The position numbers and the translations under genes were made by a program. The notes under the pieces were generated by a model. It saw nothing but the letters and a program-made list of their open reading frames with translations, did no database searches and was not told where the DNA came from. Below are positions 13,262 through 30,510 of a DNA stretch of 64,000 nt, one piece after another; within the stretch, counting starts at the first letter, position 1; the number at the start of each line of letters is the position of its first letter. The DNA is from Aphanomyces cochlioides (Eukaryota > Oomycota > Saprolegniomycetes > Saprolegniales > Verrucalvaceae): positions 1,891,501 through 1,955,500 of the forward strand of contig JAHQRK010000013.1 in assembly GCA_019828595.1 (NCBI GenBank), in the 5' to 3' direction.

Positions 13262-13267
13262 ACTGTA
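13262..13267. repeat. Polinton target-site duplication, left copy
   Basis: ACTGTA directly precedes the left terminal repeat. The identical six bases follow the right terminal repeat at 30505-30510. Confidence 0.95.
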
Positions 13268-13547
13268 AGTAATAGCTGTTAAAGGTATATCGTGGCCACT
13301 TCAAAATTCTCATGACGAGAAGCATTAGTAAGGCATCATCCATTAGCTAAGAATGGATTCTCACCCATTTCCACAACCATACGCTAGAGACACCCTCGAG
13401 CAAAAAACACAATTAACACTTGTGGAAGTGTCCAAAGGCAAAATGATCACCACTCAAAGCATTTTGCATCACCAGCATAATCTTGACCTTCATACAGAAA
13501 ATTTTAAAATTCATTTGATCTTGAACAATAATTATTTATAATATAAT
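13268..13547. repeat. Polinton left terminal inverted repeat (280 bp)
   Basis: Inverted copy of 30225-30504. The match runs from AGTAATAGC to TATAATATAAT, where the two sides diverge. It contains a small open frame (13353-13541). Confidence 0.93.
13353..13541 (+). CDS. Small open frame inside the terminal repeat
   Basis: 62 codons reading inward from the left end (starts MDSHPFPQPYARDTLEQ). The identical frame occurs in the right repeat at 30231-30419. There is no recognisable domain. It may be a chance frame preserved because the repeats are kept identical, or a real duplicated small gene. Confidence 0.3.
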   Translation: MDSHPFPQPYARDTLEQKTQLTLVEVSKGKMITTQSILHHQHNLDLHTENFKIHLILNNNYL

Positions 13548-13585
13548 GCGATATTCAGATTTACTGTTAACAAATTACCCAATAA

Positions 13586-13720
13586 TTTACGCAAAAACAT
13601 TGGGGGTCATTTAGCGCTCCAGAAACACTTGATCGTCCTGATAAATTAATTGTTGATAATAGGAATAAATTTGTTGAAGATTATAATATTAAATCATTAG
13701 CGAAAGAATTTTTTGTATAA
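13586..13720 (+). pseudogene. Possible 3' remnant of a lost Polinton gene
   Basis: A 44-codon frame closed upstream by a stop and without an ATG, encoding a polar, AT-rich sequence typical of the viral genes around it (APETLDRPDKLIVDNRNKF; ends LAKEFFV). It lies between the left terminal repeat and the CR gene. It could be the tail of a viral gene removed when the CR gene was acquired. I do not recognise the family. Confidence 0.35.
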
Positions 13721-13938
13721 ATCGATCGGGTAAAATTGCCAAATAACTGAAATGCGCAATACTTGAAATACACTTTATTACGTTTATTTTAATATGAATA
13801 CGAACATTTTTTTTGTATTCACTCACGCCCTGGTATTCGCAAGTACTGTAGCCGTCGTACGTCAAATGACAGAGGTAGGATCGCAAGGGTGTAGACTTTT
13901 GAGCGCCAGCAGAAACATATATATATATTGATCAATCC

Positions 13939-15619
13939 TTAGACTTCAATCTCAAGCACATATTGTGGAATCACATTCAAATATGACAAGTCGCACACCT
14001 GCTTCAGTCGATCGATGTGCTTGGTCAGAAGCGCAAACTCTTTTTTCACCTCCGGATCCTCAGCATGAGCCATCAAATCTGAACAAGTAAAAATTTTCTT
14101 GGCGTGCAACTTCTTTTGCAGGACTGGCCCAATATTTGGAATACATCTCACGCCGGCTCCCATCAAATCTTCCAAACGCAAATTTTGAGAGATCAACTGT
14201 TGATTCTTGTACGAGCCGCCCATTCCTTGAGGCACAACAAATATCAGTTGAGCAAAGCGTGGGTTTTGTTTGATCTTGTCAACAAGCTCCAACTTTGCAA
14301 ACAATTCCACTAATCCTGCACAATCGACTGGATGGTTCATTGATTTTGTAATTTGAAACAACAGCAACGTATGATCCAAATGGATAAATGAGTCAATGGA
14401 CTTGAATGTTTGAGATATCGGGATTTGATACACATTCTGAAAGACCATTTCCAAAGTAAAGTTTGTTGCAAACCGCTCATAATGCCCCATGGTCTTATTG
14501 ATCGTCAGCGATTTCTCTTGCTTTGGTTCGTCAAGTTGTGCGTACTTGAATGTATCACCTTCAAGAAATTTTTCATGCACGAGATTTTCAAACAACCACC
14601 CATTAAACGTAGACGCTTTTCCTGCACCGTCAAGCCATTTCATCAACTTTGCTCGTTCTTGGCTAAGTTTAACGGCGAGTTGGTTGTAAATCCGTATTCC
14701 AATCCAATCCGAACCAAACTCGAGTGTTGCAAATGTTGGATCCTCTTCAGGAATGTAATGCAGCAGTCGATGAACTACAAGATTTAACGGCACAGACATT
14801 TCAAAGCACGCTTGAACATCCTCCAACGTTTTAATCTTCTCAATCGCTTGTTCCATGGCGATCAATCCCTTTCGATACGCTCTGGCTGATTTTGCTAGAC
14901 AATAGCGCGGGACACCACCAAACTGTCTATATCTCTCGGTCAATTCTTCGTCTGATATCTCCAAATTCAACACTTTGACGGCGTCACCCAACTCGCCCAA
15001 TTCCCAAACAGGCATATACAGCTCGCAATGAGCTTCGACATTCTTCCGCATCGAATCGAGCCAACCAAAATTGGGACTTGTGAAAGTTACCATTTTCGAA
15101 CGAGCAGGTTTCACAGATGGCGGTCCATCGTAGAGATGGAGTGCATTGGGATATTCATGCTGCAAACGCGCAAACGACACTGAATCAAAAGTGTGCACCA
15201 CAGGACCTTTTGGACCAAACACGACACACTCCTCCAATTGCCGATCCTTGTTGAAAGACGCAGTAACAAAAGTGACCTCAGGATGTTCGTTTCGGTATCG
15301 AGAAAAGAAGTAGTCATAAAAGATCGATTTGCCAATGCCTACACAAAACACACGCGTCTGTTATCCATCTTTTAATCGTATACAAGTTCAAACCTGGTGT
15401 TCCCGTCACTGAGATGTAGTCGTATGTCTGTAGAAGTTCAATTACACGAACATAATACGACGAGTACGCTTTTCTCACATAGTATTCTTCCGCGCGATAC
15501 TTGAAAGCAGTTGGCAAGTCGACAGTCACGTCCTGCACACCTTGCGCTTCGACAGACATGTTCGTCTGCGGTGCAGGAGCTGGGACGGGACTTAGCGCTA
15601 AGTTCGGGCTGCCGTCCAT
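13939..15619 (-). CDS. Crinkler/RHS-type (CR) P-loop NTPase with nuclease-like domain, two exons
   Basis: Exons 15394-15619 and 13939-15338 join across a 55-nt GT..AG intron to give 541 residues. The intron splits the Walker A loop, and splicing restores GTPGIGKS. The N-terminus is Pro/Ala-rich and lacks the LFLAK-type secretion header of classical Crinklers. The middle is an AAA-like NTPase. Residues around IDSFIHL and LLLFQITK fit the D..(Q/E)xK pattern of the restriction-endonuclease-like domain in Crinkler-RHSP proteins. A C-terminal IPNIGPVLQKKL resembles a helix-hairpin-helix. Zhang et al. (Aravind group) linked this class to transposons. Here the gene lies inside a Polinton, next to its left terminal repeat. 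The first ATG is at 15619. Confidence 0.8.
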
Positions 15620-16180
15620 TTTGAAAGTGACGATATTACCCAATAATTGCTTATCTCGTTGAATATTATCAACCAATCATATGCAATGAAATCAGCGAAT
15701 GGCTGTCAAAATCTCATAATGAAAAAATGTGTGCGATCTTCGTATTCCAACAAATGTTCTTTTCAATTATTTAGATTTCCTTGGGTGTTAACAGTAAGTA
15801 CTACTACATAGTAGTACTAACTCTTCTTTAGGTTTTTGGACTATGATACAATGTATATCACAATATGTTCATTTTAAGTTATTTGTTTTCGAAAAAAAAT
15901 GAGAAACGTGAAAAAACAGTTTGCTTCAATTTTCATCACCGTGTCCCCCATTTTGGACGGGCGAAGTTACCGCACTCCAATATCTCAACTATGTTGATCA
16001 GCATTTGGTACAAATATATTAAAATTTGATTTCCAACTTCCATTATAAAACATCACACAATTTTATAATTATTTTATATTTATTCAAAACGGGACAATAA
16101 CAATTGCACCTATTTTAATTATTGTAAAATTTAAAGCAAGATATAGAACATATTTATGTAATAATTACGAAAACCGTGAA
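15620..16180. other. Intergenic between CR gene and viral module, with a 22-bp palindrome
   Basis: Non-coding by eye. AGTACTACTA-CA-TAGTAGTACT at 15797-15818 is a near-perfect palindrome with 10-bp arms, upstream of the divergent genes at 15619 (-) and 16181 (+). It could be a regulatory site. Confidence 0.5.
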
Positions 16181-16390
16181 ATGTTTGACCACGTAGAGAT
16201 TTATAAAACAAACGATGATGCTTATATTGTAATTACAAGTCCATACGGAGATAAAGATTATGAAGGATTCTATGGATTTAATAAAATCTATAAATTGTAT
16301 AACGATTGGGCTACTACGTATTTTAAAAGAATGAGTAAAGCAGAAATAATTAACTGTAATAAAATATTTAAAAGCGAGTTTGGATATTAG
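16181..16390 (+). CDS. Hypothetical Polinton protein, 69 aa
   Basis: Starts MFDHVEIYKTNDDAYIV and ends KSEFGY. It is acidic and aromatic-rich, with no recognised domain. Base composition matches the viral genes around it, and it precedes the tandem repeat at 16411-16530. It may be a small early viral gene; function unknown. Confidence 0.5.
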   Translation: MFDHVEIYKTNDDAYIVITSPYGDKDYEGFYGFNKIYKLYNDWATTYFKRMSKAEIINCNKIFKSEFGY

Positions 16391-16410
16391 TATGTTTACA
16401 TCTGTTTCAG

Positions 16411-16530
16411 TTTAACTCATAGTCAATGAAATAACCATATTTTTTGTCCATCATTTGTTTGAATTTAACTCAATGTCAATAAAAGACGTGTTTTTATATG
16501 TCCATTTGATTGAAAATAACTCAATGTCAG
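16411..16530 (+). repeat. Three imperfect ~53-bp tandem units
   Basis: The core TTTAACTCAATGTCAAT recurs at about 16411, 16464 and 16515, each followed by an A-rich stretch and TTTT..TGTCCAT. The unit period is about 53 bp. It lies in the non-coding gap between two small viral genes. Confidence 0.7.
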
Positions 16531-16730
16531 TCATTATATATTTGGTTAATCGGAACTGACTTGATTTATTATTGGAAAAATATGCCGTTTTCCCGACAAA
16601 AACCTGATGAACATAACAGACAGTCCAACATTTACTCACAAAAATTGAACATCCAAACTTGACCAATTCAAAAATTCAATATTTAATTAATTTTAAAAAT
16701 ACCTATCACCTATAGAATATATTAAAAATA

Positions 16731-17039
16731 ATGGAATTAAATTTCGGAAAATACAAAGCTAAGACTATTCAAGAAGTTTTTGAGATTGATCAAAATTACT
16801 GTAAATGGTTAATAAATCAGGAAATGTTATTGTCAAACAAACCAGAAATTAAAACATATTTAACCGAAAAATTAAAAGATGCTGATCTATCATACAAAAT
16901 GCGATGGGGTAAACATAGAAATCTAACTCTGAACAAAATTAAAGAAATTGATCCAATTTATATTGATTGGTTAAAAAATAATCAATATGTGATAGAAAAT
17001 TGCCCAAAATTAATATCTGAGCTTGAAGCATTAAAATAA
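16731..17039 (+). CDS. Tandem ExoX-C-like (DUF3820-type) small protein
   Basis: 102 residues made of two copies of one motif: LNFGKYKAKTIQEVFEIDQN then YCKWLINQ, and later MRWGKHRNLTLNKIKEIDPI then YIDWLKNN. The pattern (F/W)GK(Y/H)-x4-(T/L)-x2-(V/I)-x2-ID-x2-Y-x2-WL is that of the exodeoxyribonuclease X C-terminal-like domain, which occurs as small stand-alone proteins in large DNA viruses and phages. No nuclease domain is attached. A DNA-binding or accessory role in replication is inferred. The stop codon is 2 bp from the stop of the convergent protease gene. Confidence 0.7.
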   Translation: MELNFGKYKAKTIQEVFEIDQNYCKWLINQEMLLSNKPEIKTYLTEKLKDADLSYKMRWGKHRNLTLNKIKEIDPIYIDWLKNNQYVIENCPKLISELEALK

Positions 17040-17040
17040 A

Positions 17041-17418
17041 TTATTCGAAATCGGAATTGTTTAGATTGTGGAATCCATCAAATAAATCCATACGATTATT
17101 CTGTTTTGCATATAACCAAAGCATACACCATATACCGCAATATTCAGCATACGTTGATTGATATTGTTTTTTGTTATATTTTTTTATTCCCAAAATCAAA
17201 GGCGGTGGCTCGCCCATAGAATCAAAATATTCATTTTTATAAATCGCAGTCCAATGTCCAATTCCACCACCATTTTCTAACAAAATAATATAATTTCCGT
17301 TTTTGGGCAATTGTTTTTTTATTTCTTCAAAAGTGTAAATATTTGTTATTTCAACACCCAATAAATTAGATAATTTAATTAACTGATGATCGCTTGTAAT
17401 TCCTTTTATTAGGTCCAT
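17041..17418 (-). CDS. PRO: Adenain-like cysteine maturation protease
   Basis: 125 residues. The catalytic signature of the adenovirus/Ulp1 cysteine-protease fold is visible: GHWTAIYKNEYFDSMG supplies the His and Asp, QSTYAEYCGIWCMLWLYA supplies the oxyanion Gln and nucleophile Cys (CGIWC). Polintons and polinton-like viruses use this enzyme to mature capsid proteins. It is shorter than adenovirus protease (about 200 residues), as usual for polinton-like viruses. It lies back to back with the major capsid gene (17473, +), so the 54-bp gap must hold both promoters. Confidence 0.85.
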   Translation of the reverse strand: MDLIKGITSDHQLIKLSNLLGVEITNIYTFEEIKKQLPKNGNYIILLENGGGIGHWTAIYKNEYFDSMGEPPPLILGIKKYNKKQYQSTYAEYCGIWCMLWLYAKQNNRMDLFDGFHNLNNSDFE

Positions 17419-17472
17419 TAAATAATTTAAAAAATAATCTTATCTGTGGCTGTATATAATTAATAAAATATA

Positions 17473-19230
17473 ATGAGTGAGTATCAATTAGCCGATCAAT
17501 TTTTATATGAAAGCTCTTTAAAGGGTGAACCATCTATTAGCGTTTCCAAAGGAAAACGAATGGTTCAAGTCCCCGATGTAAATCAAGGTAGCTATCAATC
17601 TGGTATTATTTCAATTGATGCTGCAACAAGTCTTCAAGGCGCTAAAGGCTTTGCTTCTTTAAAAGATGCTTATCTTACGCTACCATATATTGTCTCTATG
17701 AAAAATACTGGCGCTGGTACATTCGGTGCTATCAATCGTTATTGTACTGCTTTAAAAGCTGGAGTATTTAATATCATTGATTCAATGACAGTAGAACTTA
17801 ATGGACAAACTATCATTACTGAATCGGATTTCAAACTCTACTGGAATAACATTCGAGCAATGACTGAATGGAGCATTTCTGACCTTAATAAACACGGTGC
17901 TGACGCTTTTATGAGCGCGGATGATTGGCAATCTATGTCTTTTTCTTCAGCAACGACTTCGTTATCAGGCGATGGTTTTACAAACAATTTCTCAAATTGC
18001 ACCGCTACTTTGGGAACTGTACCAACTGAGGCATCGTTGAAAGAAAATAACGGATTTATTTCTCGTATTTACAGCAATCCACAACTTACTGGAAACATTG
18101 ACTCATCGGGAAACTATACGGGTGGAGTAAATGCCTACAATTGGATTACACAACGATCTTCTGTAGCATCAACCATTGCAGCTCAAAACGGCAAAGGAGC
18201 TTTTGTCGTAAATACTGCACCAGTGGCGGGCTCGGTTCTTGGTGTTTGGCATCATATGTTAAAAATTCGTCTTGTTGATCTTCATCCAATTTTTAAAGAA
18301 TTGGATCTTATCGGAAATCCTCAATTGAAATTACGACTTAAAGTAAATAGTGGTTATTGCGATATTGCAGTTACTACTACTGGGCTAACGTTAGCTTCTA
18401 CAACTATGACAAGCGGCAATACCGTTCCAGTTATGTTGGCCTCTGCTGATTCTGCAAACGCTCTTGCTGGATGTAATACAGCTACGACGACTGTTCGTTT
18501 AGCATTTGGTCCCCTTCAGAATAACATTACAACGCTAGCCCAAGCTGGGCAATACCTTCCATTTACAACAGCCAGATTAAATATTCCATTCTATGATATT
18601 GCTAATCCGTTACCGATTGTAAGTCAGCCTGTAAAGAACGTGAAATATCTTGATTGTTATGCTCAATATTTCCGAGGAAAAGCCGGCACTGGTGCTCTTT
18701 CTTCAGCTCAACAAAATGCTACATTCAATCTTCAATTATCTGGTTCTTGGAAAAATATCAAATATGTTTGTTTGGTACCATACAGCGAAACAAGCAGCGG
18801 ACATTTTGCAAATTCGTCGGCTAATGGTGTAGAACAATTCCAAAGCCCATTTGATAGTGCGCCTTGGACTTGTCAAGCAGGTAGTTCAATTCGTAGCTTT
18901 CAAGTTCAAGTTGGAAATGACAACGTATTTAGTAAAACATTGGATTACGACTTTGAAGCTTGGAATGACGAATTTAAGAGACTTGGAGCAATTAATGGTG
19001 GTCTTACCCACGAAATTTCAAATGGTTTGATTGATTTTCAAAAGTGGCAAACGATTCAGCGTATTATGGTCGCCGACTGTTCTCGTATTACTAACCCAGA
19101 CGTTCCACAATCAGTTATCGTAAGCGGTGTCAATGCTTGCTGCCAAGGAACAAATTGCTTGATTTTAGTTGTGTATGAACGAGATCTTTCTGTTGACCGT
19201 TTAACTGGGGAAATTCATCATTGGACTTAA
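17473..19230 (+). CDS. MCP: Major capsid protein (double jelly-roll)
   Basis: 585 residues, the usual length for Polinton/PLV major capsid proteins. The N-terminus (MSEYQLADQFLYES), the segment GVFNIIDSMTVELNGQTI and the later GVWHHMLKIRLVDLHPIFKE followed by LKLRLKVNSG match the conserved blocks of PLV double-jelly-roll capsids. These form the pseudo-hexameric capsomers of an icosahedral particle. The frame is intact with no intron. It is flanked by protease (-) and fibre (-), and a hairpin with T-run follows its stop. Assignment is by motif recognition; a structure prediction should show two jelly-rolls. Confidence 0.85.
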   Translation: MSEYQLADQFLYESSLKGEPSISVSKGKRMVQVPDVNQGSYQSGIISIDAATSLQGAKGFASLKDAYLTLPYIVSMKNTGAGTFGAINRYCTALKAGVFNIIDSMTVELNGQTIITESDFKLYWNNIRAMTEWSISDLNKHGADAFMSADDWQSMSFSSATTSLSGDGFTNNFSNCTATLGTVPTEASLKENNGFISRIYSNPQLTGNIDSSGNYTGGVNAYNWITQRSSVASTIAAQNGKGAFVVNTAPVAGSVLGVWHHMLKIRLVDLHPIFKELDLIGNPQLKLRLKVNSGYCDIAVTTTGLTLASTTMTSGNTVPVMLASADSANALAGCNTATTTVRLAFGPLQNNITTLAQAGQYLPFTTARLNIPFYDIANPLPIVSQPVKNVKYLDCYAQYFRGKAGTGALSSAQQNATFNLQLSGSWKNIKYVCLVPYSETSSGHFANSSANGVEQFQSPFDSAPWTCQAGSSIRSFQVQVGNDNVFSKTLDYDFEAWNDEFKRLGAINGGLTHEISNGLIDFQKWQTIQRIMVADCSRITNPDVPQSVIVSGVNACCQGTNCLILVVYERDLSVDRLTGEIHHWT

Positions 19231-19246
19231 ATACACAAAAAAACTA

Positions 19247-19260
19247 CTAAGCGAGCTTAG
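19247..19260. terminator. Hairpin between convergent capsid and fibre genes
   Basis: CTAAGC-GA-GCTTAG is a 6-bp-stem hairpin 17 bp after the capsid stop, followed by a T-run (19267-19273). It lies between two convergent genes, suggesting a 3'-end or transcription-stop signal for the capsid transcript. Confidence 0.45.
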
Positions 19261-19302
19261 AATTGCTTTTTTTATTACTAAGGGTCGAGAGACTTCGCTC
19301 TA

Positions 19303-21519
19303 TTACAGCAAAGCGCTGCTTTTTGTGCGTCGAACAGGTTTAGTTGTCAGTTGTTCCATCTGCATCTGCTGCTTTCCAACAACTTGAGTAAGATTATCAA
19401 TTTTCTTAAGCGCACGTTTAAGAGCAGAATGCAGCAATGGTACAATACTAATCACATCGACAACAAGGCGGCTGTCAGATCCAATCTGAATAACATCACC
19501 ATTAACACACTCAATCATTTCCTCGGGCAATGGTTCATCCGAATCAGTAGCGCCAACTAACACACTCAAACCATGTTTCACGAGTTCTTGTGCACCATAG
19601 CCATAATGGCGTTTATCAGGATTTGCCTTATAGCTATACTCGATAGGAGTGATATTACGGACAAATCGCTCGGATTGATCTTGAGATAGATCGATTACAT
19701 CTGATTTTGTTCTCAGATCTGAAAGACAATCAATTTCACCAGAAGCAACCATAATCCCACCACTCGTCTTAAGAGAGAAGTTTCTATTACTAAATCCAGT
19801 CGCCTGACCAACTGAACTACTCGTAATGAAAGTAAAGCCCGATCCAGTTGATTGTGAGCCAGTACCAAGGATTTCCAGAGGACATCCAGGATTGTTTGTG
19901 CCCACGCCCCAAAAACCGTTAGATGACTTATAGAAGAGTGAGGATTGAATGTTGATATCTTTGTATTGAGACGATGAATAATCGAAGCATTGTAGAATGC
20001 CAACACTCGAACCAGTCGAATAATGCATATGCATACCTGGACCTGTGGTGCTAAGATCACCCGCATTGAGACCATAGCAATGAACTCCACCATTAGCAAT
20101 ATTGAGATTACCACCAGTACTCAGCTGCATCTGCTGAGTACCAGTGATAGCCGGCGTAGTTGAGTTGTTGTAAAACCAAGTATGCAAGCCACCAGACGTA
20201 TAATTGAGTGATAAGCTCGATACGCCGAGCATGTAGGATGGGCTTGTGTTATTGGTCTGAGCAAGACAAATGATATTGTCTTTCGATGTATTAGTTCCGA
20301 GATCCATTTTATGACTATTGCGCGCTGAGATACCAGATAGTTGAATCTGCCCATTATTAGCAAACGTATAATATGTGCTTGTTCCTCCATTCGTACTCGA
20401 TAGCACAATATCGCCTCCAGAACTTGTATTGATAGTCGAATTAACGGTTGCACTATAATACATTGCCAAGTGGTATCCAACGCTTGTAATCGAAAGGGTC
20501 CCGCCAGTATTCGAAGTAGAACCAATCGTAGCCGTAGTTGCTGAGATCGATGCGCCAGAATTGATAGCTCCACCAGTATTGATAGCTCCTGATACGCCCA
20601 TTCCTCCAGCGATTACCAAACTACCATTCGACTGCGTTGTTGAAGCAATATTAGAATTGATATTGATTATACCAGAAGCTGCTACTTCGAGTAATCTGCT
20701 ACCTCCGTAAAATCCAATTTGAAATCTATTATTGGTTGATCCGCTGCCAGCATAATAAAAGGAAAGTTCAGCTTGATTATTATTGTTGGTTGATTGACCA
20801 AGCGTAATATAAGAAGTGCCAGCAATAGCAAGATTATTGTTTAAGCAAGATATTGCTCTTGATGTATCTGTGCTCGTTCCTTGAAGTATAGATCCGCTTA
20901 CTGATGCATTACTACCTACATACAGTTTCTTAGCAATAGCGCACCCACCATATATAGTCATTGAGCCGCCTGCACTCGAAGATGTAGCATCCGAAGTGCT
21001 TAGAAAACCTGTATTGCCTGCAGTGGTCATACTCATCAGAAATGATCCATTCCAAATGTAGAGCTGACCAGGAAGCTGTGAATTCGTCGATCCACGGCTA
21101 CCAATCTCGAACGTACCTTGGTCATTAATAAATGCGCACGTCGATCTTCCCGCAGTATTTGACGAACTATTTAGATTGATTTGCGCGGTTCCATTAATGA
21201 TATTGATATCGCTACCGGCATAAATTTTCTTGGACACCGCCAATCCACCTGCAGTAATCATCGAGCCTGTAATAGTGCTTGATGCATCGGTAGTGCTTGT
21301 GTTTGTGTAAATACCAGTCATACCAATCGAGTTGATTCCACTTATTGAAAGCCCTGAATCTAAAATTAATGCCTTTTTAGCACTTGCTTGCCCAGCAGTT
21401 AGATTACTGATATATGAGACTCTAGGATCACTTTTTCTCAAATAAACATCACTTGTGTAATTTGACGGATTGTATGTTGAACTATTTATAGTAGGTGTAT
21501 TAGCTATGATTCCACTCAT
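19303..21519 (-). CDS. Fibre-like protein with C-terminal S74 (endosialidase-type) chaperone domain
   Basis: 738 residues. The first 600 are low-complexity, Ser/Thr/Gly/Asn-rich and beta-repetitive: the motif S-G-G-(M/A/L)-(T/A)-(I/V)-(Y/A)-x-G-G-x-A-(I/V)-x-K-K-(I/L)-Y recurs (ITAGGLAVSKKIYAGS, IYGGCAIAKKLYVGS, VIAGGMGVSGAI). The last 130 carry the S74 intramolecular chaperone signature: SDLRTKSDVIDLS with the Ser-Asp cleavage site, ITPIEYSYKAN, HYGYGAQEL, and a terminal helix LLHSALKRALKKIDNLTQ. Such proteins trimerise, then auto-cleave the chaperone, in phage tail spikes and viral fibres. A spike or receptor-binding role on the Polinton particle is inferred. Confidence 0.85.
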   Translation of the reverse strand: MSGIIANTPTINSSTYNPSNYTSDVYLRKSDPRVSYISNLTAGQASAKKALILDSGLSISGINSIGMTGIYTNTSTTDASSTITGSMITAGGLAVSKKIYAGSDINIINGTAQINLNSSSNTAGRSTCAFINDQGTFEIGSRGSTNSQLPGQLYIWNGSFLMSMTTAGNTGFLSTSDATSSSAGGSMTIYGGCAIAKKLYVGSNASVSGSILQGTSTDTSRAISCLNNNLAIAGTSYITLGQSTNNNNQAELSFYYAGSGSTNNRFQIGFYGGSRLLEVAASGIININSNIASTTQSNGSLVIAGGMGVSGAINTGGAINSGASISATTATIGSTSNTGGTLSITSVGYHLAMYYSATVNSTINTSSGGDIVLSSTNGGTSTYYTFANNGQIQLSGISARNSHKMDLGTNTSKDNIICLAQTNNTSPSYMLGVSSLSLNYTSGGLHTWFYNNSTTPAITGTQQMQLSTGGNLNIANGGVHCYGLNAGDLSTTGPGMHMHYSTGSSVGILQCFDYSSSQYKDINIQSSLFYKSSNGFWGVGTNNPGCPLEILGTGSQSTGSGFTFITSSSVGQATGFSNRNFSLKTSGGIMVASGEIDCLSDLRTKSDVIDLSQDQSERFVRNITPIEYSYKANPDKRHYGYGAQELVKHGLSVLVGATDSDEPLPEEMIECVNGDVIQIGSDSRLVVDVISIVPLLHSALKRALKKIDNLTQVVGKQQMQMEQLTTKPVRRTKSSALL

Positions 21520-21587
21520 ATTTTTAATAGAGTTGAAGACAAATAAGTATATATTCTAAAATATATATAATATTAGCTTTCTAATAA

Positions 21588-22271
21588 ATGAGTTCCAATG
21601 AAATAGAGGACTGGGGAGGAAAATTACCTAAGGCTTATAAAAGTAAGTCTCATGGTATAAACAAAGATCTTAAAATTCAGAACCTTTTCAGAGCTATCGT
21701 GCTGGGACCCAGCTATTCTGGTAAGACGAATCTAATTTTCCATATTCTCAAGCACTCTCCTCATATTTACAGCCATTTGCATATTATTGCTCGCAATCCT
21801 GAGCAAAGTCTGTATAATTACTTAAAAGATAAATTAAAAGACTTCATTACGATTTATGACCCAAATGAACCACCTCCTTCTGTTGACGATATTCCAAATA
21901 ATGGCTCATTACAATTAGTTATCATCGATGATTATTCAAATGACAAAATGCTTCAAAAAAATATATTTACGCATTATTTCACCCGTGGAAGACATAAATT
22001 GTTAAGCACTATATTTTTAGCTCATTCATATTTTGACACATATAAAACCATTAGATTGAATAGCGAATATGTATTTATTTTAAAAGCAAATAGCAAAAGA
22101 GATCTTCAAATGGTTTGTAAGGATTTTAACATTCCTGAAGTTAATGAAGACAAAATGATCAAGGCATACAATAAAGCTACTGCAAGCAAAGGCCAAGCTC
22201 TGTTTGTTGATTCTGTTAATCAAGAATTGAGGTATAATTTTGGGAAAAAAATTGATTTGAATACACTTTGA
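21588..22271 (+). CDS. ATPase: A32/FtsK-HerA-type genome-packaging ATPase
   Basis: 227 residues. Walker A is LGPSYSGKTNLIF near residue 42, Walker B is LQLVIIDDYS near residue 105, and a sensor-like FTRGRHKLLSTIFLAHSYF follows. This is the order of the packaging ATPases shared by Polintons, virophages, poxviruses (A32) and giant viruses. It would pump DNA into preformed capsids. It is divergent from the fibre gene with a 68-bp AT-rich shared promoter region and is 80 bp upstream of the penton gene on the same strand. Confidence 0.88.
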   Translation: MSSNEIEDWGGKLPKAYKSKSHGINKDLKIQNLFRAIVLGPSYSGKTNLIFHILKHSPHIYSHLHIIARNPEQSLYNYLKDKLKDFITIYDPNEPPPSVDDIPNNGSLQLVIIDDYSNDKMLQKNIFTHYFTRGRHKLLSTIFLAHSYFDTYKTIRLNSEYVFILKANSKRDLQMVCKDFNIPEVNEDKMIKAYNKATASKGQALFVDSVNQELRYNFGKKIDLNTL

Positions 22272-22351
22272 TAAGCTTGCTTTCAGCAATTAGAGAGACA
22301 ATTATTTCAATCAAATAATAAATAAATGATATAAAATAACATAAGAAAAAA

Positions 22352-23209
22352 ATGAGCTCACTTATTGTTCTTAATTCAACTCATATTGTGAATAATGGCT
22401 ATAATAATACGCTAAGATATACATTTGGGAATAGTGCAGTCAATTTTAGCAATATGGAAATTGCTGTTGCTGGGATTCAATTGTATAATTCTCAATTCAA
22501 TATTAATTCAACCTTGTACGGAAATAATACATTTCAAATTATTGTACCATATGGCGCTACTACATCGACCATATCTATCACTTTACCTAATGGTTATTAC
22601 AGTTATGCTGATATTCAAAATTATGTAGCTTCTAAACTTATCGCGGCTGGTGCATATCTGATTGATTCTAATGGAAACAATGTGATATATTTTAATATTT
22701 CAGAAAATTCTACATATTATGGTTGCCAAATTGATTTATTACCTACTCCTTTAAGTTTACCAACAGGCTGGTCGCTACCAGCCAGTGGGTTATATTCAAC
22801 AGGCGTACCAACAGGTGGCTATGCTCCGCAAATTATCATTCCAAGTGGATTTAATTTAATAGTTGGCTATCAAGTTGCAACATTTCCTCCCTCTCGTCAA
22901 ACGACTGCTCAATCGTTTTTAAGTAGTTTTACTCCACAAGTAAACCCTGTTTCAAGCTTTTTAGTTCGTTGTAATTTAGTTAATAATCCATACACTTCTG
23001 TTCCTGATGTTTTAACGACTTTTACATCACAAAACACCACTATTGGGGATTTAATAGATGTAAGATATCCTGAGTATTCTTGGGTAGAAATTTCTGATGG
23101 CTCAAGACCATACATAGAAGTGATAATTTGCGATCAGAATTATAATATTGTCAAGTTTGAAGATAGTCAAATTTTAATTCAGTTGATTATTAGACCGAAA
23201 AAAAATTAG
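22352..23209 (+). CDS. mCP: Minor capsid (penton) protein
   Basis: 285 residues. The start (MSSLIVLNSTHIVNNGYNNT followed by LRYTF) and the block MEIAVAGIQLYNSQFNI match Polinton/PLV penton proteins, as do TISITLPNGYYSYADIQNYV and the ending VKFEDSQILIQLIIRPKKN. These are single jelly-roll proteins at five-fold vertices. The gene follows the ATPase and is intact. Assignment rests on motif recognition and on synteny with the other morphogenesis genes. Confidence 0.82.
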   Translation: MSSLIVLNSTHIVNNGYNNTLRYTFGNSAVNFSNMEIAVAGIQLYNSQFNINSTLYGNNTFQIIVPYGATTSTISITLPNGYYSYADIQNYVASKLIAAGAYLIDSNGNNVIYFNISENSTYYGCQIDLLPTPLSLPTGWSLPASGLYSTGVPTGGYAPQIIIPSGFNLIVGYQVATFPPSRQTTAQSFLSSFTPQVNPVSSFLVRCNLVNNPYTSVPDVLTTFTSQNTTIGDLIDVRYPEYSWVEISDGSRPYIEVIICDQNYNIVKFEDSQILIQLIIRPKKN

Positions 23210-23220
23210 CTTACTATTCT

Positions 23221-23415
23221 CTAATTATTTCTTTCGATCTCTATAATTGCTTTTTTATGTGCATATGATCTTTGATGACTAAAACGATATCTCACGTTTA
23301 CTGATTCACCGCAATCACAAATGTATCGGTTTCTTTTGTATGGATTCAGATTTCGTTTAACTTGAGCATCAATCATTTCTTGAGTCTTCTTTATTAATGT
23401 TAAATCGATAAGCAT
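23221..23415 (-). CDS. Small zinc-finger protein
   Basis: 64 residues from the ATG at 23415. The C-terminal half is a single finger: YICDCGESVNVRYRFSHQRS followed by YAHKKAI, i.e. C-x-C-x11-H-x5-H. Comparable C-x-C..H..H micro-proteins are common in large DNA viruses and virophages. Nucleic-acid binding is inferred. It is convergent with the penton gene (12 bp between stops). Confidence 0.6.
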   Translation of the reverse strand: MLIDLTLIKKTQEMIDAQVKRNLNPYKRNRYICDCGESVNVRYRFSHQRSYAHKKAIIEIERNN

Positions 23416-23436
23416 TGTTGAAAGCACAAGCTTATA

Positions 23437-23448
23437 CTCTATATAGAG
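23437..23448 (-). promoter_or_regulatory. Palindromic TATA-like box
   Basis: CTCTATATAGAG lies 22 bp upstream of the zinc-finger gene's ATG. Similar TATATA-containing boxes precede the polymerase (about 29950-29957), the 443-aa gene (25645-25655), the fibre and ATPase pair (21548-21572) and the capsid gene (17452-17459). Confidence 0.45.
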
Positions 23449-23529
23449 GTATTTTTTTTACTACCGATTTTTTACAAAAGCTTGATGTTTTGGTGTTCAA
23501 AGCTCATGGTCAAACGTAAAATGGTATAT

Positions 23530-24009
23530 TTATACTAGTCGAAAACTACCACCACGTTTCTTCGCACGAACAAGGGCCATACGATCTTTAGCCGCTTGAG
23601 AGCCCTTTTGAAAACCTACGCCGCTAAGTTTACGAATGCCTTCCCTAATAGGGGCCAATTCTGGATTACTATATGCGATTGCATCTCCAACTCCACTTAG
23701 TACAGGTTTAATTACACTATTCCAAGCCGTACTCAAACCTGATCTCAAACTATCCCAAATGCTTCCGCCTTGGTGATGGCTTAAATCGTGATGAATTTCC
23801 CCTTCAGTAAAATCCAAACGAGCTCCTTTATTAGCTTTTTGAGCTTGAACTATTTTGCTATAATTAGCTGGATGCACAAGCATTGGCTTACTTCCTTTTA
23901 AATCATCAGCGCTAAATACAACTGTACCACCTTTGGATGCTTTAGAAAGTTTTTTCTTTGAAAGAGATGATGATACGTGAACTACTTTATAACCTCCTGT
24001 TCCTTTCAT
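23530..24009 (-). CDS. Probable minor virion protein (PX/pVI-like)
   Basis: 159 residues, basic (many Lys/Arg), Gly-rich at both ends. It contains an amphipathic segment (GGSIWDSLRSGLSTAWNSVI) of the kind seen in membrane-active adenoviral pVI and in Polinton minor virion proteins. Three stretches fit the adenain consensus (M/I/L)xGx-G: MKGTG at the N-terminus, LSGVG at about residue 104 and LSGVG at about residue 129. That suggests processing by the element's own protease. No sequence family assigned beyond this. Confidence 0.55.
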   Translation of the reverse strand: MKGTGGYKVVHVSSSLSKKKLSKASKGGTVVFSADDLKGSKPMLVHPANYSKIVQAQKANKGARLDFTEGEIHHDLSHHQGGSIWDSLRSGLSTAWNSVIKPVLSGVGDAIAYSNPELAPIREGIRKLSGVGFQKGSQAAKDRMALVRAKKRGGSFRLV

Positions 24010-24080
24010 ATTTCGTTGATTTAAACGAAGTCTATATTTTATGAATTACATAAAAAATAAAAATATATTATTAAATCATC

Positions 24081-24287
24081 TTAAAGAGCAAATGTCTTTG
24101 ATTTTTGCTCTAATTTCTTTTTTCTTTTATATTCATCAATAGATGGTCCATATCTTTGAAAACTTGATTTTGGTTCTGTATTATCAATGATTAAGTTTTC
24201 CATCGTTTCAATTAGTCTATCTTCATTTTCTTTGGCCTTTTTATTATATATTTTTAAAAATGGATGTTTAACATTAATCGTTTTCAT
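24081..24287 (-). CDS. Hypothetical Polinton protein, 68 aa
   Basis: Highly charged and Lys/Glu-rich (KKAKENEDRLIETMENLI), probably helical. It starts 6 bp after the stop of the 443-aa gene on the same strand, so the two may be co-transcribed. No recognised domain. Confidence 0.5.
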   Translation of the reverse strand: MKTINVKHPFLKIYNKKAKENEDRLIETMENLIIDNTEPKSSFQRYGPSIDEYKRKKKLEQKSKTFAL

Positions 24288-24292
24288 AGCTT

Positions 24293-25624
24293 CTATATTG
24301 TCATCATCAAAATATCATTGAATTGTTTATCGCTTAAAATTCCATTTTGAAATAAATGAATCGACATCTTCTTTAGTTCCGATTTGATCAAAGGATTATC
24401 ATTACCGATCTTGATTTCACCAATGAGCTTATTGAATTCAGCAACATATTTATCACTACCATCTCGTGGATCGCTAATAGTTTCTTTAAACGAATTTAAT
24501 AGTTTACAAACTTTTAGAGTATCGTAAAACGCAATTTTATCTTTGTTGTCAAGCTGATTATAAAGACTATAATCAATAACTCCATCAAATAACAAGATTT
24601 TGATGATTTGAAGTAGTTTATCTGACATTTTTAATCGTTTAAAACAGGAATTACCAGACGGATGGCGTAAACTTAAATATCCTTGACCAAGAGCTTTCAA
24701 ATTGACATATTTAGCTCCAAGAGGTCGATATAAATAATCTTTTTCAAAATTATGTAAATGCGAAATTCCCGCGCCGATTAAGCCTCGTCCAATGAGTTTT
24801 TTACGGGCGATTAATTTAAAGCCTTGGCCTTCCATTTTGATATCAGGTTCGCTTTTAATTGACATTTGAGTAACGCCTTGTCGGATGCCATTCACACGTC
24901 TATTTTCATCAATAATTTTGTCAATTTTTTCTTTTGTAGCAACCCAATCGTAATCAATTATACGTTTATTCTTATTTTCATGATCACTCCGTATGGTAAA
25001 TAGTCTTCCCGATCTTCCCAAGTATACACTCTTATCTTCATCACCATTTAGTAATATCGGAGAAATCTTTCTTGTTTTAAAGAAGTTCCAATTGTCCTTA
25101 TAAAGTTTTATAATTTGTTCTCTGGGGTTTTTTTTGTTATCCTCTGCGGGAAATATTGGTTTTGACTCTTCGTCGTCTTCATCAGACAAAATTCTGAAAC
25201 GATTTCTTGTTTCGACAGGGGGCATATTTTCTAATTTGATTTGATCCCTTGTTTTAATTCTGGGTTCGTATCTTGGATTACTTTCATATTGAGTTCCAGT
25301 TGTAATACCCATTGGCTCGGTTTGAGCAGATCTGGCTTTCGTATTTCGTTTAGTTTGGGTTTGTATAGTTCTACCGTTTGATTCGGTTTGAACTTCAATG
25401 GTTCTTGGGTTTGATGAATCTGTTTGAATTTCAATTGTTCTGCCAATATTTGAAGACATTTGAGGTTTTGGTAGAATTACATTTGATGCAACATCACTAC
25501 TCCAAATAGCAGTTTCATATGCCTTTTGTTTAATAGCATCGATCTTTTTATCAAGTTTGATTTGATCATAATATTCTTGTAATTTTGCTTTTTTATCAGC
25601 GAGATCCTTATAGCTCGGATACAT
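24293..25624 (-). CDS. Probable virion protein, 443 aa (PY-like position)
   Basis: The N-terminal 110 residues are charged, with a Thr/Gln-rich repeat of about 12 residues (GRTIEIQTDSS, PRTIEVQTESN, GRTIQTQTKRN, ARSAQTEPMG). The centre is acidic and basic by turns. Near residues 263-285 are MEGQG, LIGRG and LIGAG, all fitting the adenain-type cleavage consensus (M/I/L)xGx-G. The C-terminal 150 residues are helical (LLQIIKILLFDGVIDYSLYN). By location and cleavage motifs it is likely a structural or core protein cut by the protease. I do not recognise a family. Confidence 0.55.
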   Translation of the reverse strand: MYPSYKDLADKKAKLQEYYDQIKLDKKIDAIKQKAYETAIWSSDVASNVILPKPQMSSNIGRTIEIQTDSSNPRTIEVQTESNGRTIQTQTKRNTKARSAQTEPMGITTGTQYESNPRYEPRIKTRDQIKLENMPPVETRNRFRILSDEDDEESKPIFPAEDNKKNPREQIIKLYKDNWNFFKTRKISPILLNGDEDKSVYLGRSGRLFTIRSDHENKNKRIIDYDWVATKEKIDKIIDENRRVNGIRQGVTQMSIKSEPDIKMEGQGFKLIARKKLIGRGLIGAGISHLHNFEKDYLYRPLGAKYVNLKALGQGYLSLRHPSGNSCFKRLKMSDKLLQIIKILLFDGVIDYSLYNQLDNKDKIAFYDTLKVCKLLNSFKETISDPRDGSDKYVAEFNKLIGEIKIGNDNPLIKSELKKMSIHLFQNGILSDKQFNDILMMTI

Positions 25625-25662
25625 TTTACTACGAATTAATTAACGTATATATATTTGGTAGT

Positions 25663-26751
25663 TTATATTACCTGTGCAAAATAATTTTTTTCTAATTGAC
25701 TCATTTGATTTTTATTAAATATTCTTAGATTCTTCTGAGGCTCCCATGATTCACTTCCATCAGCCCATTTAACCAGATATTTGTATTGACCATTTTTTAG
25801 TTTCTTGTGACTTAAAATTTTCTCAGCTTCATAAATGTCATTTGCTCTTCCATCAGCGTCAGTAGTTTGAGCTTCTACTATTTTTATATCATTAACTGGT
25901 TTATATACGACGTGATTATTTTTTGATCGTAAATGCGTCTTTAGTCCATCTAATCCAATAAATTCATAAACGGATTTTGAATATTTAGCACCTTCTTTTT
26001 GAAATGGATTTTTTGGTTTCAATTTGTAACGTACTTTTGAGCCAATCGGGATGCTTTCTAAGACTTGCTTTGCTACATTTTGGTTATGATCATTTTCGGA
26101 AAATATGACTTTTCCTTTCATCTCATTTGGCGTTGCATGAATGGATGAATGTTCCGTGTCATTGTAATTTGAAATTGCATCGTTTAGATGCTTTTGAGTT
26201 AGCTTTTTAAAGATTCCTGTCTCGAACATTTTGGTTAGTCTTGATTTTAACGTTCTAATGAATCGATCTACCTTGCCTAGAATTGTATGATCCCCAGACT
26301 CTCCAGCGTAATGACTGATATGTTCTTTTGTTAACAGTTCTTGAACTTTTTTATTCATAAACTCATTTCCATTATCTGATGTAAACGAATGTGTTTTGTT
26401 TCGAGAAAGAAATTCTTCTATTGCTTTTCTAACTACAGGCGCAGTTTTGTTTTTCAACAATTTGGCGAAGCCGATTCGACTGTTAATATTGATTGCGATA
26501 AATATTGGTTGTTTTTGCCAAAAAGCTAAATCCATTTGCCATGAGTTTGGATTGTTGCTTGCAATTTTGAACTCAGGAAATTTCTTGTTTTGAGCTGAAT
26601 GCTGTTGAATATCAGTTTGTTTCTTATACCAATCGCGAACTTGTTTTAGAGTAATAGAATTATTAAGTTCTTTTGCTTTTTTATACAATGCTGTTGCGCT
26701 AATGAATCCAATCTTTGGATCATAGTATAATTTTTTAAGAAGTGCAGACAT
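25663..26751 (-). CDS. INT: Retrovirus-like integrase with C-terminal chromodomain
   Basis: 362 residues. The rve core has SWQMDLAFW (first Asp), FTSDNGNEFMNKKVQELL (second Asp) and, 35 residues on, LGKVDRFIRTLKSRL, where the expected catalytic Glu is Asp. A chromodomain follows near residues 306-345 (YEAEKILSHKKL, YKYLVKWADGSESWEPQKNL). Polinton integrases of this type insert the element and generate the 6-bp duplication; the chromodomain may bias targets towards marked chromatin. The gene starts 10 bp downstream of the polymerase stop on the same strand. Confidence 0.9.
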   Translation of the reverse strand: MSALLKKLYYDPKIGFISATALYKKAKELNNSITLKQVRDWYKKQTDIQQHSAQNKKFPEFKIASNNPNSWQMDLAFWQKQPIFIAININSRIGFAKLLKNKTAPVVRKAIEEFLSRNKTHSFTSDNGNEFMNKKVQELLTKEHISHYAGESGDHTILGKVDRFIRTLKSRLTKMFETGIFKKLTQKHLNDAISNYNDTEHSSIHATPNEMKGKVIFSENDHNQNVAKQVLESIPIGSKVRYKLKPKNPFQKEGAKYSKSVYEFIGLDGLKTHLRSKNNHVVYKPVNDIKIVEAQTTDADGRANDIYEAEKILSHKKLKNGQYKYLVKWADGSESWEPQKNLRIFNKNQMSQLEKNYFAQVI

Positions 26752-26760
26752 ATTATATAT

Positions 26761-29700
26761 CTAAGCAAATGAAACTTTTCTTGTAAACTTCAATCTCTTG
26801 CTTACCTTTTGTGTCTTAGTGTTAATGTCGATTGAACAACATTCGCTTAGATCAAATTCCATTGATTCACCATTATACATCTTCACATACTTTTCGAGAG
26901 GATTTTCTTTAAGAAGCTTTCCAGGAATACCCTTCATACGAATATGATGTCCCTCAACATCATTACCATCGCAAGATAGCACATTCACATAGCTTTTTTT
27001 TCCTAAGAATATTGACTCCTTAGCATAAACCTCTCCTTTTGAACCTTCAAGACTAAAATCTGTATGAAATTGCCCCATTTGCTTTCCAATTAGTTCTCTT
27101 CCATATTTTTCTTTAAAAGCGATTGCCAATTTTGGAACCCCATCACGATCAATCATCATCGAATCTGTATCCTGATACCAAATGTTAGCTTTAATATCTT
27201 CTGCAAGACACATAACTTCATTCATAATATGTTTTGAAGAATCGAGTATCTGAACTCCAAGATGAGCTGGTGAATAATGTTCATAGAGATATTTGTGTTC
27301 TTCAAATAATGCCAAATCACCAGTAATTGGCGTTCTTGAAATCATTTTATGAATCTTTCGTTTTGTTCGCTCTTTAATCTCGTCAGATCCTTTGACAAGT
27401 ATCTTCTCTTTTACAATTGGTTTTTGAATTAGCTTTCCGTAAGCGCTATTGAGGAGCAATTTGATTCCTTCTTGTAGAGGATTGCCTTCTTTTTTCAACT
27501 TAAGTCGTTCGTTGAATAATTCTTTTACTGCTTCTACTATCTTTGGATTAAAACCTTCATCCCAATAACAACCTTCAATTACCGTATATGTAGCATTTTG
27601 AAATTTTACAATATCTTCAAGAGCTTGCTTTCCAATAACCATTGTTTGTCCTATGATATCATTTGTAAAACCACGTGATCCATCTTGTTGAATACTTAAA
27701 AGTGGAAAACTTTGATGTTTTCCGATAGAGTTAAATCTAACTCGAGCAATGTAATAATCAGCATTATTCGGAATTGTATCCTTAAAGAATTTTGCTTTAC
27801 CTTTTACATAACCGCTTAATATTGATTGTCCTGATGGATATAGTGAAACAGCATCAAAATCCGATAATTGATGTTTAATGTGATACTTCTTATTATCTCG
27901 AGTCATAACTCGTCCTCCAACAATAGCTTGTCTGATAAATCCCAGAACGATTCCATTTTGTTCATAGCAACCATCAAAGCAACCTTGATTATGTTGAATT
28001 GCATAAGCAATTGATGGCATAGACATAAATCGATATACATCAATGTTGAAACGATTAATAAACATCATTCTGAAAGCTTCAAAACAAGTGTGAAGAACAT
28101 CAACATCGCGATTACAATAATGTATAGCATACTTCTGGATATCGATTTGGTCTTCAATTACTGCACCGATCTTGTTTGCGTTGGCAATCATAGCTCCTTT
28201 GTCTTCAAATCCATTGAGATAGCTAAGCTTCCACATTGACTTGAAGTTGTTTTCATTTATGAAGTCATGAGGAAATGATTCTTTTTCTAAGTTAAGATCT
28301 TTGCTTGCATCCTTGAACATCTTTGGAAGATTTGCAAGTTTGCTATTAATAAAACTCATTGAGCATTTGACTACAAGTTCAGAGCTTTTATAAAAGCAAT
28401 GAGCTTGCTTTAGTCGAGTTCCGCATTCTATCATATTGCTCTTTTGAGAAAAGCTTGTTACGTGTTTCATTAGAAAACGCAAATCGAATCCAGCATTGTG
28501 AGCCCAAAGTAAATTATGACTCTTTTCGGGAATTGACTCTAGAAATCGTTGAGCACAGTCAAACCCATAAAAGTTTTGTGTTTCGCCTGTTGAATACAGC
28601 TTTCTAAATTTATACTTTAGGATCTTGAAAGATATGCAGTAGGCAACGTGCTCGTTATCATTATTTACTAATGTTTCAAAATCGAAATAGATAACATTAA
28701 AGTTGATTATTTCTTCATATTGTTTAGTGTATTTATTAATTACTTGATTGAAAGGCGATTGACCAAATTTCATTGTACCATCAACACGTCCAATTTCTTT
28801 GAATGTATTCTCATCAAAGTCTTCTTCATATAATGAATCAACTTTTTGATACTCATTGTTAAGTAGTTTAGGAACATTACTTTGAGTAATAGGAATAAGT
28901 AATTTATCTCTGTTGTGATATAAATGTGAAATGACTTCAAAACTGTCAAGAAACTTGATTCGTTTTGAATTATAACTAACTCGTCCGTGATGAAGTATAA
29001 ATTCAGTCGATCCTTCTATTTTTACAATTTCTGGATTATTAAGAGCTGTTAGAGTGATTTTAGTTTCTTTAATAGCAAATACGTGTTTTGGCGTTACTCC
29101 AAGACGAATTACATTGTTACTATGAGGTCCATAATTATTAATATTATAACTTTTAACTCCATTATTGTTTTTATAGGTTTTTACTTCCAATCTTAACTTA
29201 AACTTTTCTGCTATTTTTTTAAACAAATTAGTTGTAATACCTGAATGAAACATTAGTTGCTTAATTTTATTAACAATGACTTTTGAAACTCCTCCTTGCT
29301 CAAGAGCATATAGAAAGCATGGAATTTCTGATTCTTTTGGAAGACCATTTGGTGATTCAGGATATACTTGAAATTGGTCAAGTAAATAATCTGCTTTTGT
29401 TAAATAACGGAAAAAGTTTTTGCGAGATGATCTGGATTGCTTTGGATCTTCAATCCATTCTAACGTTATCATTGTTGTTGGAAGAATGTTAAGATCAACA
29501 TCAGCTCCGGATGTGTATTCATTATTTTCAGTTATATAAAGATTTTCAATATTTACTTGATTAGAATTCAAATGATACGTTCGAAGAGTTGATCCATCTA
29601 TATCTAGAAAATGAACTAATAAGTTTTTGTCGGCAGGAGCAATGATGTTTGGACGAATTCGCTTAAATTGTTCAAGAAGCAAAGTTGTTGTTTGATAACT

Positions 29701-29934: not shown

Positions 29935-30051
29935 AATTTTTCAGATCTATATAATTACAATTTTTCTTTCAAGATCAAATTGTTTTTCTTGAAGATGTAT
30001 ATGAGTTGGAATAAAAAAAATATAGCTTAGAAAATATCAAAATTCTGTGTC

Positions 30052-30207
30052 TTAAACATTGATTTGTCTTAACAAATTAACTTCTCTTTTGTAGTGATTT
30101 CTAGCATTAATTCGATCCAAGATGCGTTGTTGATGTTTGTAGTAATAATCGTGATTCACCTGAACTCTTGGTTTTTTGTCTTCGGGTGATTTCTTTGGTG
30201 GAGCCAT
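30052..30207 (-). CDS. Small basic Polinton protein, 51 aa
   Basis: Starts MAPPKKSPEDKKPRVQV and ends REVNLLRQINV. It is strongly basic, with a helical YYKHQQRILDRINARNHYKR segment resembling the short KERI/YY-type basic helices of viral micro-proteins. It lies between the polymerase and the right terminal repeat. A DNA-binding or terminal-protein-like role is possible but unproven. Confidence 0.45.
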   Translation of the reverse strand: MAPPKKSPEDKKPRVQVNHDYYYKHQQRILDRINARNHYKREVNLLRQINV

Positions 30208-30224
30208 TTGTGATTATTTGTTGT

Positions 30225-30504: not shown

Positions 30505-30510
30505 ACTGTA
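30505..30510. repeat. Polinton target-site duplication, right copy
   Basis: ACTGTA, identical to 13262-13267. Confidence 0.95.

Follow-up and report, generated by a model that had tools for sequence, protein, structure and literature searches.

The DNA analyzed here, referred to as the window, is a stretch of 64,000 nucleotides from the oomycete Aphanomyces cochlioides (C5:1891501-1955500 in a genome of 76,215,617 bases and 94 contigs). Positions 13268-30504 form a Polinton, with polymerase, integrase, ATPase, and capsid-type genes lying between terminal repeats, and close to its left repeat is a cargo gene encoding a P-loop NTPase of Crinkler/RHS type that lacks the Crinkler header, contains a helix-hairpin-helix, and probably has a restriction-endonuclease-like fold. 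This gene probably occupies a cargo slot, extending from the left terminal repeat to the protease/capsid block, that several groups of Polintons fill with different Crinkler-type genes, and the role of these genes would be in intracellular conflict. Polinton sequence beside Crinklers has been known since 2013; what is new here, and well supported, is the presence of Crinkler-type genes as the diversified slot cargo of Polintons. In the labels used below, C denotes contigs, L genomic stretches or copies, and P database proteins.

Listed here are the limits of the element and the parts of the cargo gene.

13262-13267, no strand: left target-site duplication ACTGTA, read at the element end
13268-13547, plus strand: left terminal inverted repeat, 280 bp, with 40 genome matches of 97-100%
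13939-15338, minus strand: cargo exon 2, with the NTPase core past Walker A, the restriction-endonuclease-like fold, and the helix-hairpin-helix
13993-14190, minus strand: helix-hairpin-helix region, residues 391-456 of the exon-2 open reading frame (ORF), preceding the final strand of the nuclease-like fold
14191-14625, minus strand: bulk of the nuclease-like fold, residues 246-390, with conserved E258, D323, Q336-x-T338, and H343
15124-15141, minus strand: presumed Walker-B-like motif, LHLYDG
15142-15219, minus strand: hypervariable block lying between the two Walker motifs, A and B, with three discrete alleles
15339-15393, minus strand: intron of 55 nt, GT..AG, within the Walker A loop
15394-15619, minus strand: cargo exon 1
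30225-30504, minus strand: right terminal inverted repeat, from the repeat comparison
30505-30510, no strand: right target-site duplication ACTGTA, read at the element end

The two terminal repeats, 280 nt each, are 100% complementary, and the 6-bp duplication is found on both sides. The cargo gene, at 13939-15619 on the minus strand, ends 392 bp inward of the left repeat. A first-pass annotation had proposed both the perfect boundaries and this distance, and the coordinates agree with it. It had also placed a 55-nt intron in the Walker A loop, and this is borne out by the reading frames: exon 1 ends with ..ISVTGTPG and exon 2 begins with IGKS, such that the loop reads GTPG^IGKS. The intron is present and near-identical in all 11 copies for which the upstream part was read (the window and L030-L039), the variants being one 1-base deletion and one substitution. 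In four of the 11 (L035, L036, L037, and L039), exon 1 lacks its first ATG, and a later in-frame ATG would be needed. The GC content of the cargo gene is 0.44, as compared to 0.278-0.41 for the remaining genes of the element and 0.465-0.484 for the flanks. At third positions the value is 0.457 versus 0.23-0.26 for the capsid, integrase, and polymerase genes, and thus the cargo is richer in GC than the viral genes, as had been claimed. Its third-position GC, together with the spliceosomal intron, points to a putative cellular origin for the gene.

The exons were kept unjoined in every search. An hhalign comparison of the cargo with L001, a Crinkler of this genome that does have the header, gave a probability of 99.45 and an E-value of 4.6e-22 over 366 columns. 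The region aligned is the C-terminal module of L001, and it includes the blocks GTPGIGKS, MPxW, FGGxPR, FE, ID, and FQxT..H. Five genomic matches of the cargo (E 1.4e-4 to 4.5e-8) share an open frame with, or adjoin, a Crinkler header, two of them on C4 and one each on C20, C34, and C78. The P-loop is defined by GTPG^IGKS and LHLYDG, and the Pfam family AAA_22 was matched by 11 of 34 relatives with a best E-value of 1.3e-4. The Crinkler header itself, PF20147, was matched by neither exon 1 nor exon 2 in Pfam, was not among 25 of the 27 families listed for the 34 relatives, and had no place within any of 21 elements (described below) in a scan of the genome.

The C-terminal part scored modestly for both a helix-hairpin-helix, as had been annotated, and a restriction-endonuclease-like fold. 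Structural comparison of the C-terminal domain (Z-score, rmsd, and aligned residues in parentheses) returned McrC (5.6, 3.9, 107), NucS (5.3, 3.5, 100), LmuA (5.1, 3.9, 115), Avs4 (4.9, 4.5, 105), HamA (4.7, 6.3, 121), FokI (4.4, 3.6, 104), and Can2 (4.3, 5.7, 119). The catalytic set of the restriction-endonuclease superfamily is D-(E/Q)-x-K. In the alignment referred to as A2, Asp 323 is nearly invariant and Gln 336 is invariant. Two observations weaken the assignment: a threonine, Thr 338, stands where the usual catalytic lysine would be expected in all 14 members of A2, and RHSP, the Pfam family of the kinetoplastid RHS proteins, was matched by only one of the 34 relatives, with an E-value of 0.039 that is below the cut-off. 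The Crinkler/RHS type given in the first-pass annotation is thus upheld by the match to L001 and weakened with respect to RHSP.

Other searches returned little. Foldseek gave nothing below an E-value of 0.001 for either the whole model of the cargo or its C-terminal domain, PADLOC gave no sequence match for the protein at E-values up to 0.1, and PHROGs gave nothing at E-values up to 0.01 for any of four cargo proteins. A sequence search of the PDB yielded only helix-hairpin-helix polymerases and apparent chance matches, and scans of viral contigs revealed no relative of the cargo family and none of the capsid. Set beside bacterial NTPase/nuclease defense proteins such as McrBC, Lamassu LmuA, and Avs, the cargo accordingly displays weak structural scores and lacks a PADLOC match. 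Like the CR effectors that combine an NTPase with a restriction endonuclease (Zhang et al. 2016, as given in the available part of PMC5289972), it has a P-loop NTPase and, after it, a putative nuclease domain. Unlike the effectors as presented there, it has no Crinkler header, its helix-hairpin-helix lies outside of the aligned part, it is encoded by a Polinton, and an intron interrupts its Walker A. One CRN with a helix-hairpin-helix, PsCRN108, is listed for PMC4695088.

Given that the header is absent from the cargo gene, the suggestion in the first-pass annotation of a host-active effector does not follow. The protein would be expected to remain in the oomycete cell and probably acts in the cell that produces it. 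There, NTP hydrolysis by the P-loop module might license or position the nuclease, the helix-hairpin-helix would grip DNA, and the element could deploy the nuclease against competitors, including rival Polintons and giant viruses, or against host processes or chromatin. Superinfection exclusion, as raised in the first-pass annotation, is at most a candidate role. Giant viruses are reportedly restrained by a Polinton-like virus and by virophages. Like those virophages and Polinton-like viruses, some of which are integrated and have been proposed as antiviral, the element is virus-like; unlike it, they are not mentioned as carrying a Crinkler-type nuclease in the titles and partial abstracts consulted. 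The nuclease might instead be an addiction or host-control toxin that attacks the oomycete's own genome and thereby stabilizes or spreads the element. The toxicity of the family is believed to reside in the nuclease domain (PMC5289972, in part), and a header-less form would presumably act in the producing cell, but no antidote gene was recognized among the listed ORFs, in which no search aimed at antidotes was made, and the host carries 20 open copies. We regard such a toxin as quite unlikely.

The left repeat has at least 40 matches in the genome with identities of 97-100%, and pairing by position yields at least 21 elements, a lower bound given that the search scored 40 of 47 candidates. Both repeats were found in 19 of these elements, and one element on C11 and another on C56 each yielded a single repeat. 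All of the 21 elements found contain the cargo gene. Its exon 2 is open in 20 of them, with 471-473 codons and identities of 83-100%, the copy on C56 being rearranged and broken. Full-length genes uninterrupted by a stop were seen in 17 elements for the capsid and in 18 for the integrase. Exact 6-bp duplications, each different, border the window copy and nine of the ten further copies tested at both ends, which agrees with the proposal that the gene moves with the element. Since every element carries the gene, the cargo is not the guest of a single copy, and a later insertion into one copy, the possibility that the first-pass annotation had raised against its own reading, is ruled out.

The tenth copy, C13:223543-240773 (flanks L067 and L068), has no direct duplication; rather, its flanks are reverse complements of one another, and a copy in the opposite orientation begins ~4 kb away at C13:244936. 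Taken together, these features suggest that the C13 copy underwent inversion by recombination between copies. On C4, a fragment of a Crinkler header (C4:1216647-1216769) is positioned 224 bp beyond the right repeat of the element there.

Copies of other Polintons were sought in the genome with the capsid, integrase, and ATPase. Reading was extended to 20 stretches that adjoin other capsid genes, which correspond to 21 slots because L010 spans two elements. Nine of the slots contain a Crinkler with a Pfam header, namely that of L001 and eight belonging to a second lineage (the right-hand copy of L010, L012-L017, and L020). Direct scoring covered six of them (L001, L010, L012, L013, L014, and L017), and all nine coincide with header places in the genome. 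The capsid of lineage 2 is ~61% identical to that of the window, and a further Crinkler copy of this lineage is located at C10:640329 on the basis of capsid and header matches. The one lineage-2 copy that was checked, C18:684501-701895, has terminal repeats of its own (266 bp, 93.6%) and a duplication, AAGGGC. In seven copies of the lineage the end of the Crinkler lies 518-527 bp within the left end. Carriage inside terminal repeats is thus observed for the window lineage and for one lineage-2 copy.

Two further groups have Crinklers at the corresponding place, and carriage in them is judged by position. The L001 element, with a capsid of 95% and an ATPase of 96% identity, is a close relative of the window element rather than a separate lineage. 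Its slot contains a header-NTPase Crinkler in the opposite direction, and the genome integrase search found no match nearby. Lineage 3, with capsid identities of 28-30%, is represented by two copies, C6:90041 and C31:271748. The Crinkler of the former is one open frame (Pfam E 6.1e-20), whereas in the latter the header and the nuclease part are split over two frames. For the seven slot Crinklers scored directly, the Pfam Crinkler E-values ranged from 3e-19 to 2e-25. Two lineages and one close relative with Crinklers at the same place go beyond what the first-pass annotation had claimed.

The likely common factor of the slot genes is a restriction-type nuclease, because the PADLOC model PD_DExK was matched in lineage 2 (E 3.6e-16) and in lineage 3 (E 1.5e-10), with one Crinkler tested per lineage, and because L001, the nuclease part of which is known solely through its similarity to the window cargo gene, resembles the latter. 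Most likely, all of the slot genes encode nucleases of the restriction-endonuclease superfamily. No header gene was recognized in the remaining 12 of the 21 slots (L002-L009, the 80% copy of L010, L011, L018, and L019). In two of these, L005 (1684-2607) and L007 (7636-8355), an ORF matches Uma2, which is a putative restriction endonuclease, at sub-threshold E-values of 0.012 and 0.0042, respectively. L005 and L007 are older relatives of the window element that have the Uma2-like ORF in the slot instead of a Crinkler. A header fragment was also noted at C45:1128904-1129017, ~7 kb upstream of the distant capsid pieces of L019.

Whether by number of loci or by group, the association exceeds that seen by chance. 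A Crinkler header lies 4.5 kb or less upstream of 11 of 47 capsid loci, a count reached in none of 5000 within-contig shifts (mean 0.49, maximum 5 of the 47 loci). Counting groups is fairer, as eight of the 11 loci are copies of one lineage; slot Crinklers occur in three groups, and 25 of the 5000 shifts reach three. The test employed 115 of 150 header places, those on contigs of known length, and the 47 capsid loci were merged by hand, with the C10 lineage-2 locus left out, the 5' end of the C56 capsid gene estimated, and the lineage labels assigned by the author.

Over 60% of its length, the lineage-2 Crinkler L014:6528-7763 shares 82% identity with a protein from Phytophthora cactorum. Given that this is a high value for two distant oomycete orders, horizontal movement of the gene is possible, as judged by sequence comparison. 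This match, the Crinkler headers on the lineage-2 and lineage-3 genes, and the Polinton sequence beside Crinklers in Phytophthora sojae would all be accommodated if Polintons were vehicles that spread plant-directed Crinkler effectors among oomycetes, to the benefit of the pathogen host. In P. sojae, according to the accessible text of Shen et al. 2013 (PMC3726527), no repeat is more frequent than Polinton in the flanks, 2 kb each, of duplicated CRNs, 63 genes in all; CRN fragments are also reported to recombine, and transposable elements are suggested to carry gene copies inadvertently. The effector-vehicle explanation is nevertheless unlikely. The window cargo gene has no header, and secretion of the cargo and slot genes is putative at most. 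Moreover, a signal peptide is predicted for fewer than 4% of 234 Crinklers of Aphanomyces euteiches in PMC8780586; PMC5907361 gives less than 25% for a predicted secretion signal.

The P. sojae genes resemble the present case in having Polinton sequence nearby and in fragment recombination. They differ from it in that, as far as the available text of PMC3726527 describes them, the transposons are flanking and the genes are not placed between terminal repeats or in a slot. The excerpted text of PMC8204020 records four CRN genes together with Polinton fragments on a viral contig of Phytophthora parasitica. In the literature searched, mostly as titles and abstracts, no report was found of Crinklers as slot cargo between the repeats of Polintons.

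For the comparison of cargo and capsid, 17 of the 21 elements were used, the other four having a capsid gene that is broken or contains a stop. The mean synonymous difference is 0.098 for exon 2 versus 0.026 for the capsid gene, with that of exon 2 being larger in 124 of 136 pairs, and the nonsynonymous means for the 136 pairs are 0.050 and 0.0038, respectively. When L022, L035, and L037, picked by the author for their lower capsid identity, are set aside, the synonymous values for the remaining 14 elements (91 pairs) are 0.093 and 0.0025. Data for the 3' flank cover 10 of the 21 copies and those for the 5' part 11; in the former 10, diversity is 0.033 in exon 2 versus 0.0025 over the 312 nt from the stop codon onward. 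Ordinary element age as the source of the cargo variation is ruled out by the near-uniformity of the capsid gene and the 3' flank.

Within the same 17 copies, all four gametes are present for 5815 of 10153 pairs of sites in exon 2 (143 informative sites), which corresponds to at least 15 recombination events, as compared to none of 465 pairs (31 sites) in the capsid gene. The block at exon-2 residues 48-73, which lies between the two Walker motifs, has three discrete forms, and another block, near residues 261-291, has two. All six combinations are represented among 20 copies. Proteins of A. euteiches share forms A and B (P0008; P0001 and P0011), and a block resembling form C is found in a stand-alone gene, L060. 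As read from these patterns, the cargo alleles are continually reshuffled as copies recombine with one another or with relatives. The mosaic alleles, and the forms shared with A. euteiches, beside a uniform capsid indicate that old alleles reside in young elements. Such shuffling of the residue 48-73 block may keep altering what the module recognizes or what restrains it. The dN/dS ratio of exon 2 is ~0.5 with a mean dS of ~0.1, and the mean dN is slightly above the mean dS in two of 11 sliding windows. Positive selection as judged by pairwise dN/dS is unsupported, with none of 190 pairs above 1.

These data bear on two other explanations. The gene might be an accidental passenger, that is, a captured host gene of the Crinkler family that is merely carried and that owes its diversity to gene conversion with a large host pool. 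Such a pool exists in the form of at least 150 Crinkler-header places in the genome, there are stand-alone relatives, one of which (L060) has a variable block like form C, and the GC content and spliceosomal intron are host-like. A mere passenger is improbable, however, in light of the Crinklers at the same place in two further lineages and a close relative, the retention of an open exon 2 in 20 of 21 copies at a mean dS of ~0.1, and the sharp fall in diversity past the stop codon. The Crinkler-header genes of the genome are also found in dense arrays (C25:685-776 kb, C28, C88, and C90). The other explanation is an enzyme for element maintenance, a nuclease required for the Polinton's own replication, integration, or packaging. 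Its fixed position, its presence in 21 of 21 elements, and its helix-hairpin-helix would suit that function, but the slot genes of other groups are differently built, 12 of the 21 further slots are without a recognized header gene, and variability greater than that of the capsid gene would not be expected. We consider this explanation very unlikely.

A cargo slot filled with conflict genes is thus the reading that we favor, and it can be extended, more tentatively, as follows. Oomycete Polintons may keep a dedicated weapon slot beside the left repeat, refilled in different lineages with Crinkler-type restriction-fold nucleases, with the cargo of the window lineage recombining among copies and being shared across species in the manner of an immune/anti-immune locus. 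Some of the Crinklers, among them the many that have no signal peptide, would in that case be conflict proteins that Polintons encode and that act within the oomycete, and plant-directed effectors would be a later co-option. This broader scheme is possible, although we would not presently place it above the alternatives taken together. Crinklers have mostly been studied as plant-directed effectors, though few have predicted secretion signals in A. euteiches, and the present results suggest that a selfish virus-like element uses some of the suspected effector genes as its tools. If Polintons do carry Crinklers as slot cargo, they provide a concrete vehicle for the spread and duplication of these genes and a testable alternative role for them as nucleases in virus-virus or virus-host conflict within the oomycete. 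The mosaic alleles of the cargo offer a handle for finding what is recognized.

The remaining genes of the window Polinton are as follows.

16731-17039, plus strand: small gene, the lineage-2 counterpart of which matches Pfam ExoX-like_C
17041-17439, minus strand: cysteine-protease-like gene, weak Peptidase_C5
17467-19230, plus strand: putative major capsid protein gene, 587 aa, from position and homologues
19303-21555, minus strand: fiber-like gene with a Peptidase_S74 chaperone domain (Pfam)
21588-22271, plus strand: A32-like packaging ATPase (Pfam), 52 genome matches
22340-23209, plus strand: candidate minor capsid gene
25663-26760, minus strand: rve integrase with a chromodomain (Pfam)
26761-29940, minus strand: DNA polymerase B, DNA_pol_B_2 (Pfam)

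The polymerase matched DNA_pol_B_2 with an E-value of 3.5e-27, and the ATPase matched Pox_A32 at 1.6e-07, above the Pfam cut-off. The integrase gave 4.3e-07 for Chromo and 2.6e-06 for rve, the score of 28.1 bits for the latter being under the cut-off of 32.6. The protease-like gene matched Peptidase_C5 below the cut-off (E 0.087), and its assignment leans on position and conservation. No capsid family was matched in the Pfam search by either the capsid gene or the possible minor capsid gene; the former is assigned from its position, its conservation, and 68 matching pieces in the genome. Location and conservation are compatible with the double-jelly-roll major capsid and the adenovirus-type protease of Polintons. 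Like Polintons/Mavericks in general, the element has repeats starting with AG, a 6-bp duplication, genes for polB, integrase, and ATPase, and a putative capsid-type gene. Its slot with an allele-varying Crinkler-type cargo sets it apart from those known.

The small gene beside the protease recurs in several Polinton lineages, and its lineage-2 form (L014:7904-8239) matches ExoX-like_C with an E-value of 1.2e-18. The fiber-like protein is 750 aa in length. Elsewhere in the window, a gene block is present twice with near-identical ORFs (38159-39706 and 54091-55665). The ORF at 39753-40592 contains a P-loop (YVYGPPGTGKTSLLKFLYP) and by eye resembles the replication protein of small circular DNA viruses; its Pfam matches, to AAA-type families and RNA_helicase, are weak.
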